A DNA stretch of 64,000 nt from Sanyastnella coralliicola. GTDB taxonomy: Bacteria > Bacteroidota > Bacteroidia > Flavobacteriales_D > Sanyastnellaceae. Of the stretch, positions 3,203 to 38,809 are shown piece after piece (the stretch's first letter is position 1; each line of letters starts with the position of its first letter). Location: the NCBI RefSeq assembly GCF_030845195.1, contig NZ_CP132543.1, positions 637,501 through 701,500 of the forward strand, given 5' to 3'. The translations under genes were made by a program, and so were the position numbers. The notes under the pieces were generated by a model that was not told the DNA's origin, did no database searches, and saw only the letters and a program-made list of their open reading frames with translations.

Positions 3203-3223
3203 GCGATCCCACAGGGACTCGAA
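3203..3223. repeat. attL core (21-bp direct repeat)
   Basis: Identical over 21 bp to 38789-38809, the 3' end of tRNA-Arg (discriminator, acceptor 3' strand and part of the T arm). Identity stops at both outer edges (T/A to the left, T/C to the right). Confidence 0.95.
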
Positions 3224-5271: not shown

Positions 5272-5566
5272 CCCCGGCGGACCTTTTCTGCCGGTACAAA
5301 AGTTGAGCAGATCAGAGCGCGAAAGCGTTCACTCGATCACTTCGAAAGTGGTTGACATAGTCAAGCAATCTCGACTTGATAATTGCTGGATAGCTGTTGT
5401 GGCCGCACCTCCATATAGAGACGGCATCTATGTGGCTAAAGCAAAAGACCGAATCCTAGGCTTTTTTAAGATGAGAAGTGGGGTCGTGGTGAAATCAAAG
5501 GATGATGGGTGGCACATTTCAGAGGCTACGCACTACCATCGCTTACCGGATAATCAACTCTTATGA
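5243..5566 (+). CDS. Hypothetical phage protein
   Basis: 107 aa, overlapping the previous gene by 29 bp and the next by 4 bp, as expected of a packed phage operon. The first about 20 residues may not be translated; an ATG at 5261 is an alternative start. No known domain recognised. Confidence 0.5.
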   Translation: MMNRTSMGLDPGGPFLPVQKLSRSERESVHSITSKVVDIVKQSRLDNCWIAVVAAPPYRDGIYVAKAKDRILGFFKMRSGVVVKSKDDGWHISEATHYHRLPDNQLL

Positions 5567-6474
5567 AAGCTCTATTCCTACCAGGAGGAGGCACAAAGAT
5601 TGCCGGAATCCTAGGCGCAGCTGAATGCGTTGTTAAGCGCCACAAATTCAAACCAGATGTAGTCGCTGGATTATCTGCAGGAGCGATTCTTACCCCAGTT
5701 GTAGCGCTTGATCGATTCGAGAAAGCGAAGGAGGTGATTTTCGACCTGAAGGTTAAAGACTTCTTTGAGTGTCCACCAGTGAAGGACAATGGGAAGATGA
5801 CTGCTACTGCGGTTTATAGAGGGCTGCGAGGGAAACACTCGCTGGGTATAATGGGCTCAGCCTTTGAGAAGACCCTTGCGAAGGTCATTGATTGGAAGAC
5901 CTGGGAGTTTGACATTGCTACTTCAGGTGTTGAGGCTTTTTGTCAAACCGTCAACGCATCAGACGGAACAGCTGTTCTACACTCATTGAACAGAATGTCG
6001 GATTTTCGAGCAATCAAAGCCATTCTATCCAGCGCTTCTATCCCGGTCTTTGCTGAAGGCGCAGACGGTGAGGATTTTAGTTTTTGGACGAGTGGTCTTC
6101 ACCTAGATGGGGGGCTAAGGAATCACACACCATCAACAAGAGTTCTCGAAAGCTTCGACCAGCCATACTCAGAGGTAGTCAGTATTTACAGTAGACCGGT
6201 GTCTTTCATTAATGCCATAGATCATACATGGGAACCAGGTAATGTTTTGGATATAGCAGAGCGCTCCTTGGAGATTCTAATGATGGAAGTCTCTAAGAGA
6301 GACGCAGAACGTGAACGCGAAATCTGCGAGAAAAAGCGTATTCCACTCACTCAAATATTCCTAGACCTACCTCAGAATGGATTCTACGACACCGATAATC
6401 TAGGCCGCTCTTATCAAGACGGATTCAAACAGGCTGAGGAAGCTATGTCTAGAAGAAAGGAGGGCGCGGTATGA
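5563..6474 (+). CDS. Patatin-like phospholipase
   Basis: 303 aa. Gly-rich oxyanion loop GGGTKIAG (residues 8-15), nucleophile elbow GLSAG (36-40, Ser38) and DGG (182-184, Asp182) give the Ser-Asp dyad of the patatin family, in normal order and spacing. No signal peptide, so it acts in the cytoplasm unless lysis frees it. Patatins deacylate phospholipids. In defence systems (CapV and relatives) patatins act as membrane-destroying effectors; here no CD-NTase or other partner gene is adjacent, so a role in lysis, virulence or exclusion is equally open. Overlaps both neighbours by 4 bp. Confidence 0.9.
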   Translation: MKALFLPGGGTKIAGILGAAECVVKRHKFKPDVVAGLSAGAILTPVVALDRFEKAKEVIFDLKVKDFFECPPVKDNGKMTATAVYRGLRGKHSLGIMGSAFEKTLAKVIDWKTWEFDIATSGVEAFCQTVNASDGTAVLHSLNRMSDFRAIKAILSSASIPVFAEGADGEDFSFWTSGLHLDGGLRNHTPSTRVLESFDQPYSEVVSIYSRPVSFINAIDHTWEPGNVLDIAERSLEILMMEVSKRDAEREREICEKKRIPLTQIFLDLPQNGFYDTDNLGRSYQDGFKQAEEAMSRRKEGAV

Positions 6475-28179: not shown

Positions 28180-29072
28180 AACACACATTCAACATAGATA
28201 TCGCTCGCAAGTATGGCGTCAATTGCGCAATAGTACTTGATCACTTTGCTCATTGGATTGCCTACAATAAAATCAGGGGTGTTAATCTCAAGGAAGAAAG
28301 GCATTGGACATACAACAGTATTAGCGACTTGCTTCAAGTCTTTGACTATCTCACTCGCGATCAGATACGGTACGCTATCAAGAAGCTTGTGGATTCGGAA
28401 GTGCTGGTGGAAGGAAACTTCAATAAGTACGCTTTTGATAGAACCAAATGGTATGCCATGAAAGACGAACAAGTGCTGTTTTCTCTTGGGGTAATTAGTG
28501 GCGCCAACTCGATTGACGGCAAATCCCAAATCTCTGAGGTAGCCAGCCCAGACGATTTGGGAACATTACCGCACACAATTGGGAATCATCCCAAACCAAT
28601 ACCAACTAACTACCAACTAACTAATACAACTAACTACCAACTAAAGGAAAAAAACGCGCTTGCGCGCTCCGAAAAAAGTGGAGAGGTGTCAAGACTGATT
28701 CTGAAGGACTTTCAATCCATGAAAGAGTCATTGCAAGACGCAGTGACGGCAAACGAAGCTCTTGCTCAGCAATTGACATCGACGAAAAAGAAATGCACTC
28801 TGAAAGATGTCAATGACCTCATCGACGTTTTCATCTTGAATCTTATGGCGAAGGACGAGTCCGAAAAAAACCGAAAGGATTTGAGAACCCATTTCGCCAA
28901 TTGGGCGCGCATTCAATGGGGAAAGGACGAATGGCCGCTGAAGAAATTAAACCAATACAAGCACTCGGAAACAGATAAGGAGCTGATAGACAAGGGGTAT
29001 ACCAACGTCGTTGATCTTGATGAGCACTCAGCAGCACTAAAAAAGAAGTTCTATGGAGACGAGGCTAGCTGA
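28176..29072 (+). CDS. Phage replication initiator-like protein
   Basis: 298 aa. Residues 1-100 are a winged-helix domain of the phage replisome-organiser type (KYGVNCAIVLDHFAHWI, RHWTYNSISDLLQVFDYLTRDQIRYAIKKLVDSEVL). Residues 140-165 are a low-complexity linker (TNYQLTNTTNYQL) coded by direct repeats that may be the origin. 166-298 is a helical C-terminal part (helicase or loader contact). Followed by a DnaC-like loader, as lambda O is followed by P. Confidence 0.75.
   Translation: MKHTFNIDIARKYGVNCAIVLDHFAHWIAYNKIRGVNLKEERHWTYNSISDLLQVFDYLTRDQIRYAIKKLVDSEVLVEGNFNKYAFDRTKWYAMKDEQVLFSLGVISGANSIDGKSQISEVASPDDLGTLPHTIGNHPKPIPTNYQLTNTTNYQLKEKNALARSEKSGEVSRLILKDFQSMKESLQDAVTANEALAQQLTSTKKKCTLKDVNDLIDVFILNLMAKDESEKNRKDLRTHFANWARIQWGKDEWPLKKLNQYKHSETDKELIDKGYTNVVDLDEHSAALKKKFYGDEAS
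28603..28644 (+). repeat. Direct repeats inside the initiator gene, candidate origin iterons
   Basis: CAACTAACTACCAACTAA occurs exactly twice, 28603-28620 and 28627-28644, period 24 bp. Just upstream is the inverted repeat TTGGGAATCATCCCAA, and just downstream an A-rich run then GCGCTTGCGC. Iterons in the linker of the initiator gene are the arrangement of lambda ori in gene O. Confidence 0.5.
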
Positions 29073-30063
29073 GTTCAAGAAGATTGGGGCAGCCCTGATT
29101 AATGGGTTCACGGTTGATGAAGCGAATGAAATTGCTGTTCTGCAATTACTGGACTATTTCTTCGCGGATAATCCAGAGTTATCAAGAGGTAAAGGAGTTG
29201 CGCTAGTTGGCAACTATGGAGCTGGAAAGACTTCAATTTTCAGAATTATCCAACAAATGATGGAAGTGAGAGAGCGCTTCAGCATGGTCCGCGCCATGGA
29301 TATCGCAAACGACTACGCTGTTCATGGCGAGTCTATCGTCTCTAAGTACAAGAATGATCAAGTGTTGATGGTAGATGATGTCGGGGAAGAGGATGATAAG
29401 CATCGATTTGGCAACAAGGTCAATTCGGTTGCGGAGGTTATGGGAGTCCGTTACGAATGCCATCAGAATAAAGGCATTGTGACTCACATGAGCTCTAATC
29501 TGAACCTTGACGATTTCGAGAGTCGTTATTCCGGGCGGATTGCGAGTCGCATGCATGAAATGTTTCATGTCATCCGCTTCACAAGCACGGTTGACCGGCG
29601 TAAGAGTAGCGCCCCCGTAGAGAGGCGACCTAAGGCCAATTTTGTAAAGCGGACCACAACGGATCTAGACAAAAAGAAGATTGCCGACGCTTTTCTAGAG
29701 GACGTGTGGTTCAAGCCCCTGGAGAAATACCAGAAGACAGGGGACATCAAAGTCTTTCAAGACTACTCTATGCACGAGGTCTTCCGTGAGCTATTCAAAA
29801 GAGGAGTGATTCGCCTCACGGAACAACAAACTCAATACTACATCGAGGAGGGTAGGAGTATCTATCTGCTTGAACCAGGTAATCGCCACGCATGCAGATT
29901 CCCTTCGCTAGCTCGAAAGGGGAGTTCTCACAACTTCTACCGCTCCGTTGCAGAAAGAAATTCATCCAGTGAAGGAAGAGCGAAATACAACGCAGGTCTT
30001 CTCTTCATGTGGGACTACATACACTCAATGAAAAATCAATTAAAGCAGAACGAAAATGATTGA
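29053..30063 (+). CDS. DnaC-like helicase loader ATPase
   Basis: 336 aa. Walker A GNYGAGKTS (53-61), Walker B VLMVDDVGEED (104-114), then VTHMSSNLNLDDFESRYSGRIASRMHEMF with the sensor and SRM arginine motif of DnaC/IstB AAA+ proteins. C-terminal 140 residues are extra and unassigned. Loads the host DnaB helicase. Overlaps the initiator by 20 bp. Confidence 0.88.
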   Translation: METRLAEFKKIGAALINGFTVDEANEIAVLQLLDYFFADNPELSRGKGVALVGNYGAGKTSIFRIIQQMMEVRERFSMVRAMDIANDYAVHGESIVSKYKNDQVLMVDDVGEEDDKHRFGNKVNSVAEVMGVRYECHQNKGIVTHMSSNLNLDDFESRYSGRIASRMHEMFHVIRFTSTVDRRKSSAPVERRPKANFVKRTTTDLDKKKIADAFLEDVWFKPLEKYQKTGDIKVFQDYSMHEVFRELFKRGVIRLTEQQTQYYIEEGRSIYLLEPGNRHACRFPSLARKGSSHNFYRSVAERNSSSEGRAKYNAGLLFMWDYIHSMKNQLKQNEND

Positions 30064-32973: not shown

Positions 32974-32998
32974 TAAAATTGTTTGCACTCTGGCGGCA

Positions 32999-33034
32999 TA
33001 GAAAAAGGACTGATCCGAAGCAGTCCCTTTTTCT
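32999..33034 (+). terminator. Terminator of the early operon
   Basis: AAAAAGGACTG-atccgaag-CAGTCCCTTTTTCT stem with T-run, 26 bp after the C5 methyltransferase stop. A paralogous copy lies at 34411-34446. Confidence 0.8.
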
Positions 33035-33625: not shown

Positions 33626-34390
33626 ATGAAAGACTTTAGATTTTTACGCAACTGGAACTATGACGAAGAAACGATTCGAAGCATTCAGGATGATTTCAAG
33701 GAGCTTGAAAGCGACGGGTTCAGTTATGATGTTGTTAGCTGGGATGTAGGGGACTTCCTTATAAATATGAAGCTACAAATGCCCCCAGGGTACAAACAAA
33801 CACCTGAAGGTACGAGAATGCTCATTGCTCAAATGCTACGGCTTGATCCTAGAATGAACCTGAACTTAGATATAACCGACGGCGAGAATAAAGTATTCGT
33901 AGATTTTTCGGACCCAGTTTTGCCTGAGTTTCACATGATGAAGGACAATGAAGGACAAACTGTTGTTATCCGGTTGAAACCTCCTATGTTCATGGGGGTG
34001 GTAAGTAATCTCTATTCCGTTCGCAATGGATTGTCTCACACATTCAAACGAAAGGGTACAGCATACCGAGTACATGAGTTCTATCGATTCGATGAAACTG
34101 CAGACAACCGCGTGAAGGCAAACCTAAAACGTATGGCTTACTTCTTGTCGCGGAATTTCGAGACAGATACCGGTAATAATGAGTATCGTCAGGAATCTGA
34201 AGCCGTAACCATTGACGATGTATCACCGACGTGGTTATCGGAGAAAATCATGAATAGCTCGATGACCCGTGATGAAATTGCGGAGAACACCGGAGCCACC
34301 GTTGCGGATCTATCCAACTTTTCTTCCGGCGCAAAACCGATGTCGAAAGTCAGAAGAGCTTGCTTTTTCTGGTTCTTCAAGTCGAACTAA
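33626..34390 (+). CDS. Hypothetical phage protein with C-terminal HTH-like segment
   Basis: 254 aa. N-terminal about 170 residues alpha/beta without recognised domain; residues 205-250 (MTRDEIAENTGATVADLSNFSSGAKPMSKVRRACFFWF) look like an XRE-type helix-turn-helix. It may be a regulator that answers to something bound by its N-terminal part. Sits between two paralogous terminators. Confidence 0.55.
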   Translation: MKDFRFLRNWNYDEETIRSIQDDFKELESDGFSYDVVSWDVGDFLINMKLQMPPGYKQTPEGTRMLIAQMLRLDPRMNLNLDITDGENKVFVDFSDPVLPEFHMMKDNEGQTVVIRLKPPMFMGVVSNLYSVRNGLSHTFKRKGTAYRVHEFYRFDETADNRVKANLKRMAYFLSRNFETDTGNNEYRQESEAVTIDDVSPTWLSEKIMNSSMTRDEIAENTGATVADLSNFSSGAKPMSKVRRACFFWFFKSN

Positions 34391-34410
34391 ATTACCTGGC
34401 GAAATGGCAT

Positions 34411-34446
34411 AGAAAAGGGACTGATGCTAAGCAGCCCCTTTTTCTT
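34411..34446 (+). terminator. Terminator paralogous to that at 32999
   Basis: AGAAAAGGGACTG-atgctaa-GCAGCCCCTTTTTCT. Shares the words GGCATAGAAAA, GACTGAT and AAGCAG with 32999-33034, in the same order. Confidence 0.75.
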
Positions 34447-35520: not shown

Positions 35521-35546
35521 GGGTTACCAAAAGAGGTAGCCCTTTT
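35521..35546 (+). terminator. Second terminator, insulating the downstream leader RNA
   Basis: GGGTTACC-aaaaga-GGTAGCCC (one G-U) then TTTT. The T-run is also the start of the -33 box of the next promoter. Confidence 0.75.
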
Positions 35547-35574
35547 GCATGTTCTAATTTTATTTCTATGTTTG
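35544..35574 (+). promoter_or_regulatory. Consensus Bacteroidota promoter of the switch-like leader
   Basis: TTTG (35544-35547), 19-nt spacer, TATGTTTG (35567-35574): exact match to TTTG-N19-TAnnTTTG. Start point is expected at about 35578-35581, that is, at the very beginning of the 5' strand of the long helix described for the leader. Confidence 0.8.
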
Positions 35575-35576
35575 CT

Positions 35577-35761
35577 GTGACACAAGTCTGCTACTGCAGC
35601 GAAAAGAATTTCCTAGAAAGACATTCATACCTATTGATGGACAGGTATGGTCGAGACGCGGTGCAAGTCCGCGCTACAACTTCCACTTCGGTGGCGGCTT
35701 GTGTCACCACGGCCATACCGCTGTGAACTTGAGATAACGTAATCAATTAATCTTCAATAAA
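35577..35761 (+). ncRNA. Structured 5' leader, candidate riboswitch-like element
   Basis: Pairings seen: P1 35577-35588 (GTGACACAAGTC) with 35696-35707 (12 bp, one G-U); hairpins CTGC-TACT-GCAG (35588-35599), CATACCT/AGGTATG (35626-35649), CGCGG-TGCAAGT-CCGCG (35657-35673) and CCAC-TTCG-GTGG (35683-35694). Alternative pairings: 35696-35706 is also perfectly complementary, over 11 nt, to 35763-35773, the start codon region of the next gene; and 35644-35652 (GGTATGGTC) can pair with 35711-35719 instead of with 35626-35632. Two states thus expose or hide the start codon. No known riboswitch class fits; GGTGCAAGTCC recalls a short piece of the cobalamin riboswitch core, but its other conserved boxes are missing. 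Confidence 0.65.
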
Positions 35762-36367
35762 ATGACACAAGCCGAAGATGTGACGATTGCGGATGAGATC
35801 CGTAACGTACACCATGGTCTAGTGGAAGACCCTTCTAAAATCCACAACACTTCAAAGTTAGTTTTAGCCCTTGACAACATCGGGTTCTTTAACTTAGATA
35901 CGATGAGACACCTCATCCAACAGGGTTTCGCGAAGACAATGGGAGCGGAGGATTCTCGCTTCAACGAACTGTCTTCAGAGGAACGTGTAGATATGTTTGA
36001 TCAGTCAATTGACCTCATCAAACTAAGTCTACACATGGAAGAACCCCTACCGCCCAAGGAATGGGATAAGATCAAAGAAAAGGCAAGAGAGAGTGCAGAA
36101 CGCATTGCTCACAACCGCCCAATCCTTGAGATACTAGACCGGATGTATGATTGTGACCCTTCTCATTTAGCTGAGAACTGGTTGGTCATGGGAAGGAGCT
36201 ACTTTGGTTCAGATGCTTATGCTGAGAACAGTCCTGGTGATCGATCAGAACAGTTCGAAGTATTCATAGCCATTTGGGAGTTGATGATCTTCATGCCCTC
36301 AGAAGAGTGGATTCACCTTTCAATGGAGACATTGTCGCCGGAGGATATCTCCGAAGACGACTTGTAG
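35762..36367 (+). CDS. Hypothetical protein controlled by the structured leader
   Basis: 201 aa, acidic, predicted all-helical, cytosolic, no signal peptide or membrane segment. No family recognised. Its first codons ATGACACAAGCC repeat the 5' end of its own mRNA (TGACACAAG), which is the basis for the proposed switch. Own promoter and terminator mark it as a single-gene unit in the lysogen-expressed right end. Confidence 0.65.
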   Translation: MTQAEDVTIADEIRNVHHGLVEDPSKIHNTSKLVLALDNIGFFNLDTMRHLIQQGFAKTMGAEDSRFNELSSEERVDMFDQSIDLIKLSLHMEEPLPPKEWDKIKEKARESAERIAHNRPILEILDRMYDCDPSHLAENWLVMGRSYFGSDAYAENSPGDRSEQFEVFIAIWELMIFMPSEEWIHLSMETLSPEDISEDDL

Positions 36368-36375
36368 GACTTGAG

Positions 36376-36404
36376 ACCACCCCTGGAAACGGGGGTGGTT
36401 TTCT
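36376..36404 (+). terminator. Terminator after 35762-36367
   Basis: ACCACCCC-tggaaac-GGGGGTGGT followed by TTTCTTTATTT. Confidence 0.8.
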
Positions 36405-36408
36405 TTAT

Positions 36409-37344
36409 TTAAAGGGAATTTCCCCTTCCTATCTTTCCCCGATCTGTGTAGTATACATGAAATTTCTCTCCTTCGCCTGCGTCGCTCAGATCGATTAGGC
36501 GTTGAAAATACGCGTACCGGATAATCCTAGGAAAGGGATGTGAAATAAGCCTTCCGAAGGATATTATATCATCTAACTCCCTTTTTTCCAGTTCGCTAAG
36601 TCGGCGAAAAGCCCCATCTGGACTTTCAATATAATCAAACTCATAAGCCTGGTTCTGAAGTGTCTTGATTCTTTCCTGAGCATTTTCAAGTTCTTTCTGA
36701 AGATCCTTAGATTTTTTTATTTCAACCTTTAAGTTTTTCAAGGCCGCTTCTTTTTTCTGATTTTCGGCCGATAATTCGTCATCTCTTTTCTTGAGTTTCT
36801 CAGAGTATTCAATTGCGTCTTCTTCGAGTCGCTTTTTATCCCTTATGGACGATGCAAGCTTACCTTGAGCAAGTTCGATTCGGCTATTGAGAGATTTAAC
36901 ATCCTCTTCGAGAGCTAAAATCTTCTCTTGATATTCATCGTTTGAAACTCTGTAGCGATTTAATGCATCGCGAAGTGTCTGGAATCGGTTACGATCGACC
37001 ACTCTGTCGTTTCCAAAATTTTTCTGAATGAGGGGTTTGATGTTATCCTCAGAGAAGGTTACTATAATTCTACTCAAATTCGCTAAGGCGTAACTAGAAA
37101 TTAGAATGCCAAACGTTATCAGAATTGAGTACAAGACGTCAGCTCTTAAACACCTTTCACTGAGTAGCTCTTGAATTTTGGCAACTCTATCTTCGAGAGG
37201 CACAACTCCATCGAACGTAAAGATCGAGTAGAATAGCTCCCATCTGCGAATGATAAATACCGCAAAGTAAGTCCCAATAAAAGGGTTTTTTACCTTGGAG
37301 CTGAAGTCAGACTTGAGGCCAGAAAAAAGATCGAAGAGTGCCAT
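36409..37344 (-). CDS. Membrane-anchored coiled-coil protein, possible superinfection-exclusion or defence cargo
   Basis: 311 aa. Two membrane segments (about residues 24-42 and 70-92), then a long coiled coil (about 125-235, heptad-rich with Glu/Lys), then an unassigned C-terminal 70 residues (FDYIESPDGAFRRLSELEKRELDDIISFGRLISHPF). Located beside the integrase, a usual site for cargo expressed in the lysogen. Base composition is more A/T-rich than the structural genes, suggesting separate acquisition. No known defence family recognised. Confidence 0.65.
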   Translation of the reverse strand: MALFDLFSGLKSDFSSKVKNPFIGTYFAVFIIRRWELFYSIFTFDGVVPLEDRVAKIQELLSERCLRADVLYSILITFGILISSYALANLSRIIVTFSEDNIKPLIQKNFGNDRVVDRNRFQTLRDALNRYRVSNDEYQEKILALEEDVKSLNSRIELAQGKLASSIRDKKRLEEDAIEYSEKLKKRDDELSAENQKKEAALKNLKVEIKKSKDLQKELENAQERIKTLQNQAYEFDYIESPDGAFRRLSELEKRELDDIISFGRLISHPFPRIIRYAYFQRLIDLSDAGEGEKFHVYYTDRGKIGRGNSL

Positions 37345-37395
37345 GTTGCTATTTTGTCGGAAATTAGAATTTAGTCTGTTTCTTTTTCTACTCCT

Positions 37396-38788: not shown

Positions 38789-38809
38789 GCGATCCCACAG
38801 GGACTCGAA
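38789..38809. repeat. attR core (21-bp direct repeat, within tRNA-Arg)
   Basis: Perfect match to 3203-3223. It covers the tRNA 3' end from the base after the discriminator into the T arm, so integration keeps the tRNA whole. Confidence 0.95.

Follow-up and report, generated by a model that had tools for sequence, protein, structure and literature searches.

The structured leader of a single prophage gene in the 64-kb window (the whole stretch of 64,000 nucleotides that was analysed) contains an antisense strand able to pair either with the predicted 5' end of the RNA or with the start codon of the gene downstream. This pairing itself is real, and a chance origin is very unlikely. We put at about even the chance that the region is a cis-acting 5' leader that sets start-codon access of a phage cargo gene through two competing folds; at present, the pairing arrangement is well supported and the switch function is a candidate. 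Should a leader that hides the start codon operate here, it would show how phages control single genes in Bacteroidia, where translation mostly begins without Shine-Dalgarno pairing and relies on a start region free of structure, and if a trigger exists, the leader would be a new sensor RNA. The features discussed are collected in Table 1.

Table 1. Features of the leader and its transcription unit (positions in the window)
Feature	Position	Strand	Sequence or remark
Bacteroidetes-type promoter	35544-35574	+	TTTG-N19-TATGTTTG; consensus and position as in PMC7366714 and PMC9723704
Structured leader	35577-35726	+	52% GC; long P1 closes three hairpins, followed by a 3' hairpin
5'-end strand of helix P1	35577-35588	+	GTGACACAAGTC
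Hairpin CATACC...GGTATG	35626-35649	+	present in both predicted states; pair probability about 0.95-1.0
Hairpin with stem CGCGG/CCGCG	35657-35673	+	7-nt loop UGCAAGU
Shared antisense strand	35695-35707	+	CGGCTTGTGTCAC; partner 35577-35588 (P1) or 35763-35774 (anti-start)
Anti-start target	35763-35774	+	TGACACAAGCCG; TG of the start codon and first bases of the next codons
Gene for a 201-aa acidic orphan protein	35762-36367	+	pI 4.5
Intrinsic terminator	36373-36402	+	ends the single-gene unit

Promoter, gene and start site

The consensus promoter reported in the initial annotation is present and occupies a fitting intergenic place. Sites of the form TTTG-N19-TATGTTTG number two in the 64 kb when both strands are counted, against 1.3 expected. 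The predicted RNA start was corrected from 35577 to approximately 35579, because the -7 box of Flavobacterium psychrophilum promoters spans -12 to -5 (PMC9723704). GC content amounts to 52% in the leader, compared with 37% in the upstream intergenic sequence and 23% in the tail ahead of the gene. Promoter and Bacteroidia-type start site fit a single-gene phage cargo unit.

Comparison with the copy in a marine Flavobacteriales MAG of the same genus, a close relative of the single-contig genome that contains the window, revealed 12 synonymous and 4 nonsynonymous changes in the 201-aa gene, which argues that the gene is real. Its protein has no above-chance match in Pfam, PHROGs, NCBIfam, PADLOC, phages, plasmids or the PDB, and its structure prediction reached a pLDDT of 49. 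A 52-aa open reading frame lying over the leader (35568-35726) was rejected as a gene, as it lacks a family match and its sole change is nonsynonymous.

The start site of the 201-aa gene carries A at positions -3, -6, -12 and -13. Initiation in Flavobacterium johnsoniae is reported to be guided by A at these upstream positions, and initiation in Bacteroidia depends on low structure around the start together with A-rich positions, instead of a Shine-Dalgarno sequence (PMC8710568). Hiding the start codon is thus a plausible means of control.

A repeated word and its alternative partners

The word TGACACAAG(T/C)C, that is TGACACAAGYC, has five copies in the 4.1-Mb genome, three of which lie here within 200 bases: at 35578, on the predicted RNA 5' end; at 35696-35706, inverted; and at 35763, on the start codon. 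The gene start at 35763-35774 does repeat the RNA 5' end, as had been proposed, and the inverted copy can take either of them as its partner, never both. Pairing between 35577-35588 and 35696-35707 comprises the 12 base pairs previously described, one of them U-G, and helix P1 is predicted to extend to about 19 pairs with a bulge. The anti-start pairing of 35695-35706 with 35763-35774 consists of 12 perfect pairs, slightly longer than the 11 originally claimed. The two sense copies differ by T or C at one position, and both bases pair with the same G.

This arrangement is rare. A 9-base word in three copies and both orientations appeared in 0 of 5000 dinucleotide shuffles. When the 180 bases preceding each of 321 open reading frames of the same genome were searched for a perfect antisense match to its start codon, the match reached 12 bases here and at most 9 in the 320 others. 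Furthermore, the 12-bp match is produced by only 2 of the 64 synonymous codings of MTQAE.

Three near-identical 11-mers, one of them directly at the transcription start, might also represent DNA sites at which a phage-encoded or self-encoded regulator binds, one at the transcription start, one within the leader and one where the gene begins; the pairing in the RNA would then be a by-product of their orientation. However, the word is not palindromic, and at 0 mismatches it is absent from the remainder of the window, the repressor-like region near 27.1 kb included; only two further copies exist in the genome away from the leader. Operator sites would also leave unexplained the strong fold and the extension of P1 beyond the repeat, and we regard this explanation as unlikely.

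Predicted folds and a model of start-codon access

With all energies predicted and tertiary structure excluded, the leader folds at -58 to -59 kcal/mol, with a z-score of about -3.4 to -3.6; compared with 640 sampled 150-nt stretches of the window, it had the lowest energy but ranked only 20th by a rough z-score. The UUCG hairpin noted in the initial annotation (CCAC-UUCG-GUGG, 35683-35694) can be drawn, but the best fold absorbs it into the long helix. A second exclusive choice, suggested for 35644-35652, was not upheld: complementarity between 35644-35653 and 35710-35719 is present, but it is outcompeted almost entirely by the local hairpin, and the long-range pairing, when forced, costs about 13 kcal/mol.

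The central proposal, a choice between two incompatible folds that leave the start codon free or hide it, was reproduced in the predictions, with similar energies for the two: the helices exclude each other and one of them lies over the start codon, as in a translational two-state leader. For transcripts ending between 35775 and 36000, the folds are predicted to differ by about -2 to +5 kcal/mol, and the winning fold flips with the chosen 3' end. P1 is closed in the leader alone and is the first helix to fold in shorter transcripts, and the anti-start fold is favoured once the RNA extends through the coding start and roughly 50 bases further. For a given 3' end, warming from 10 to 37 C shifts the predicted gap by no more than about 1.5 kcal/mol. 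A thermometer, one of the functions first suggested, is therefore not supported, because the predicted fold balance is almost independent of temperature over this range.

The early formation and high stability of P1, together with the ordinary local structure around the start, would also suit a static leader without switching, whose P1 shields the 5' end of the mRNA and keeps the start site insulated. Such a leader would leave the copy of the RNA 5' end at the gene start unaccounted for, and it appears unlikely.

Under cis control by two competing folds, the RNA 5' end would first trap the antisense strand 35695-35707 in P1 during transcription, a state in which the start codon would be accessible while a duplex encloses the RNA 5' end. 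Once the first codons and the following sequence had been transcribed, the antisense strand could exchange its partner in P1 for the start codon and codons 2-5, and the resulting anti-start helix would prevent initiation. How much protein is made would then be decided by a race between ribosome loading and refolding, and any factor that makes P1 more stable or cleaves it, be it a protein, RNase III, a small RNA or a ligand, might tip this race.

Known RNA classes, conservation and the prophage

The claim that no known class fits was borne out: Rfam 15, riboswitches included, gave nothing at the gathering score and only chance-level matches up to E = 10. The cobalamin riboswitch covariance model, with its conserved core and B12 box, likewise found no match in the leader. 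The L5-like hairpin CGCGGUGCAAGUCCGCG is presumably the sole part of the leader that resembles a cobalamin riboswitch, and we take the loop UGCAAGU at 35657-35673 to fit the T-loop pattern of tRNA T arms and of L5 in cobalamin riboswitches. With translational riboswitches the leader shares a structured body and a predicted strand exchange that would hide or free the start. In contrast to them, it comes with no ligand, family match or diverged homologues, and what would be hidden is the start codon and first codons, not a Shine-Dalgarno sequence. It is quite improbable, to our mind, that the leader stands for a new class of regulatory leaders in Bacteroidia phages, whose mRNA 5' end would hold a decoy copy of the gene start, with one antisense strand choosing between the RNA 5' end and the start codon. 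Such a leader would couple 5'-end protection of the transcript to translation and would respond to a signal from host or phage via the domain with the T-loop-like hairpin.

The lambda cIII leader has two near-equal conformations. When RNase III binds lambda cIII mRNA, the conformation changes and a structure that inhibits translation is relieved (PMC2777011). Control of start-codon access in cis is the most likely function of the present leader, and in principle it would resemble lambda cIII; no sequence relation is claimed. Unlike in lambda cIII, the competing strand here has its partner at the RNA 5' end, which lies about 185 nt 5' of the start codon.

A structured RNA directly 5' of a single prophage gene is also the arrangement of AbiF (PMC12373285), and in this respect the leader is like the AbiF/RCd22 and type III toxin-antitoxin RNAs. 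It could accordingly be the RNA partner of its own protein, binding and neutralising the product and also limiting its expression. However, searches for the hallmarks of these systems yielded no tandem RNA repeats, abiF motif or other Rfam match and no ToxN-type, Abi_2-type or other toxin family match for the protein, and no terminator was detected that would separate the leader from the 201-aa gene. We consider an RNA-protein pair of either style distinctly unlikely.

The sole relative of the leader found was the near-identical copy in what looks like a free circular phage in the MAG. Genome searches with the DNA, the protein and a covariance model, the latter two across several hundred genomes, turned up only the copy in this same-genus MAG, and those of phages and plasmids gave no relative, apart from a chance hit to the last part of the gene. 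Scans of viral contigs (cargo gene, 33626-34390, integrase, 29053-30063 and three DNA patterns) returned nothing, and a capsid search of viral contigs led to nine phage loci, all distant, at which no credible leader was seen. Two candidates were rejected: a DNA match (L003) antisense inside a coding frame, a chance match, and a covariance-model match (L012, 19.5 bits) antisense in a long open frame resembling a large terminase.

Between the window and the MAG copy, the leader carries 1 substitution in 218 bases, compared with 46 in 1641 in the remainder of the 1859 aligned bases (P 0.015), and the single substitution, at 35608, falls in a hairpin loop. This low count hints at constraint, at a mild significance and from two near-identical sequences. 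Chance, or a past copying event that left a short word with no function, would be compatible with what is effectively one known sequence and with a fold z-score unexceptional within the window; against it stand the few leader substitutions, the shuffles, the genome copy number of the word and the comparison among open reading frames, and we hold it to be improbable.

The prophage around the leader contains terminase, portal and HK97-type capsid genes, and its end adjoins an integrase and a tRNA-Arg gene. A 21-base att core at 3203-3223 and 38789-38809 (tRNA-Arg 3' end) bounds it. MAG contig JAKVAX010000030.1 is the same phage; its ends share a 77-base overlap, and in it the two prophage ends are joined at the 21-base core. 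The contig looks like a free circular form of the phage, and given this circular contig joined at the att core, the phage may be active.

The two phage copies differ in cargo between the terminator of the leader gene and the integrase: the window (36406-37392) encodes a 311-aa coiled-coil-like protein, and the MAG phage (L006:1860-4188) has other genes, one of them an SDH/ClpP-like serine proteinase (PF01972, E = 5.8e-23). A patatin-like phospholipase gene (PF01734) is located at 5563-6474, near the other end of the prophage. Finally, a direct repeat of about 39 bases (32995-33033 and 34406-34444, 87-90% identical) flanks a RadC-like gene and the gene at 33626-34390 and is present in both phage copies.
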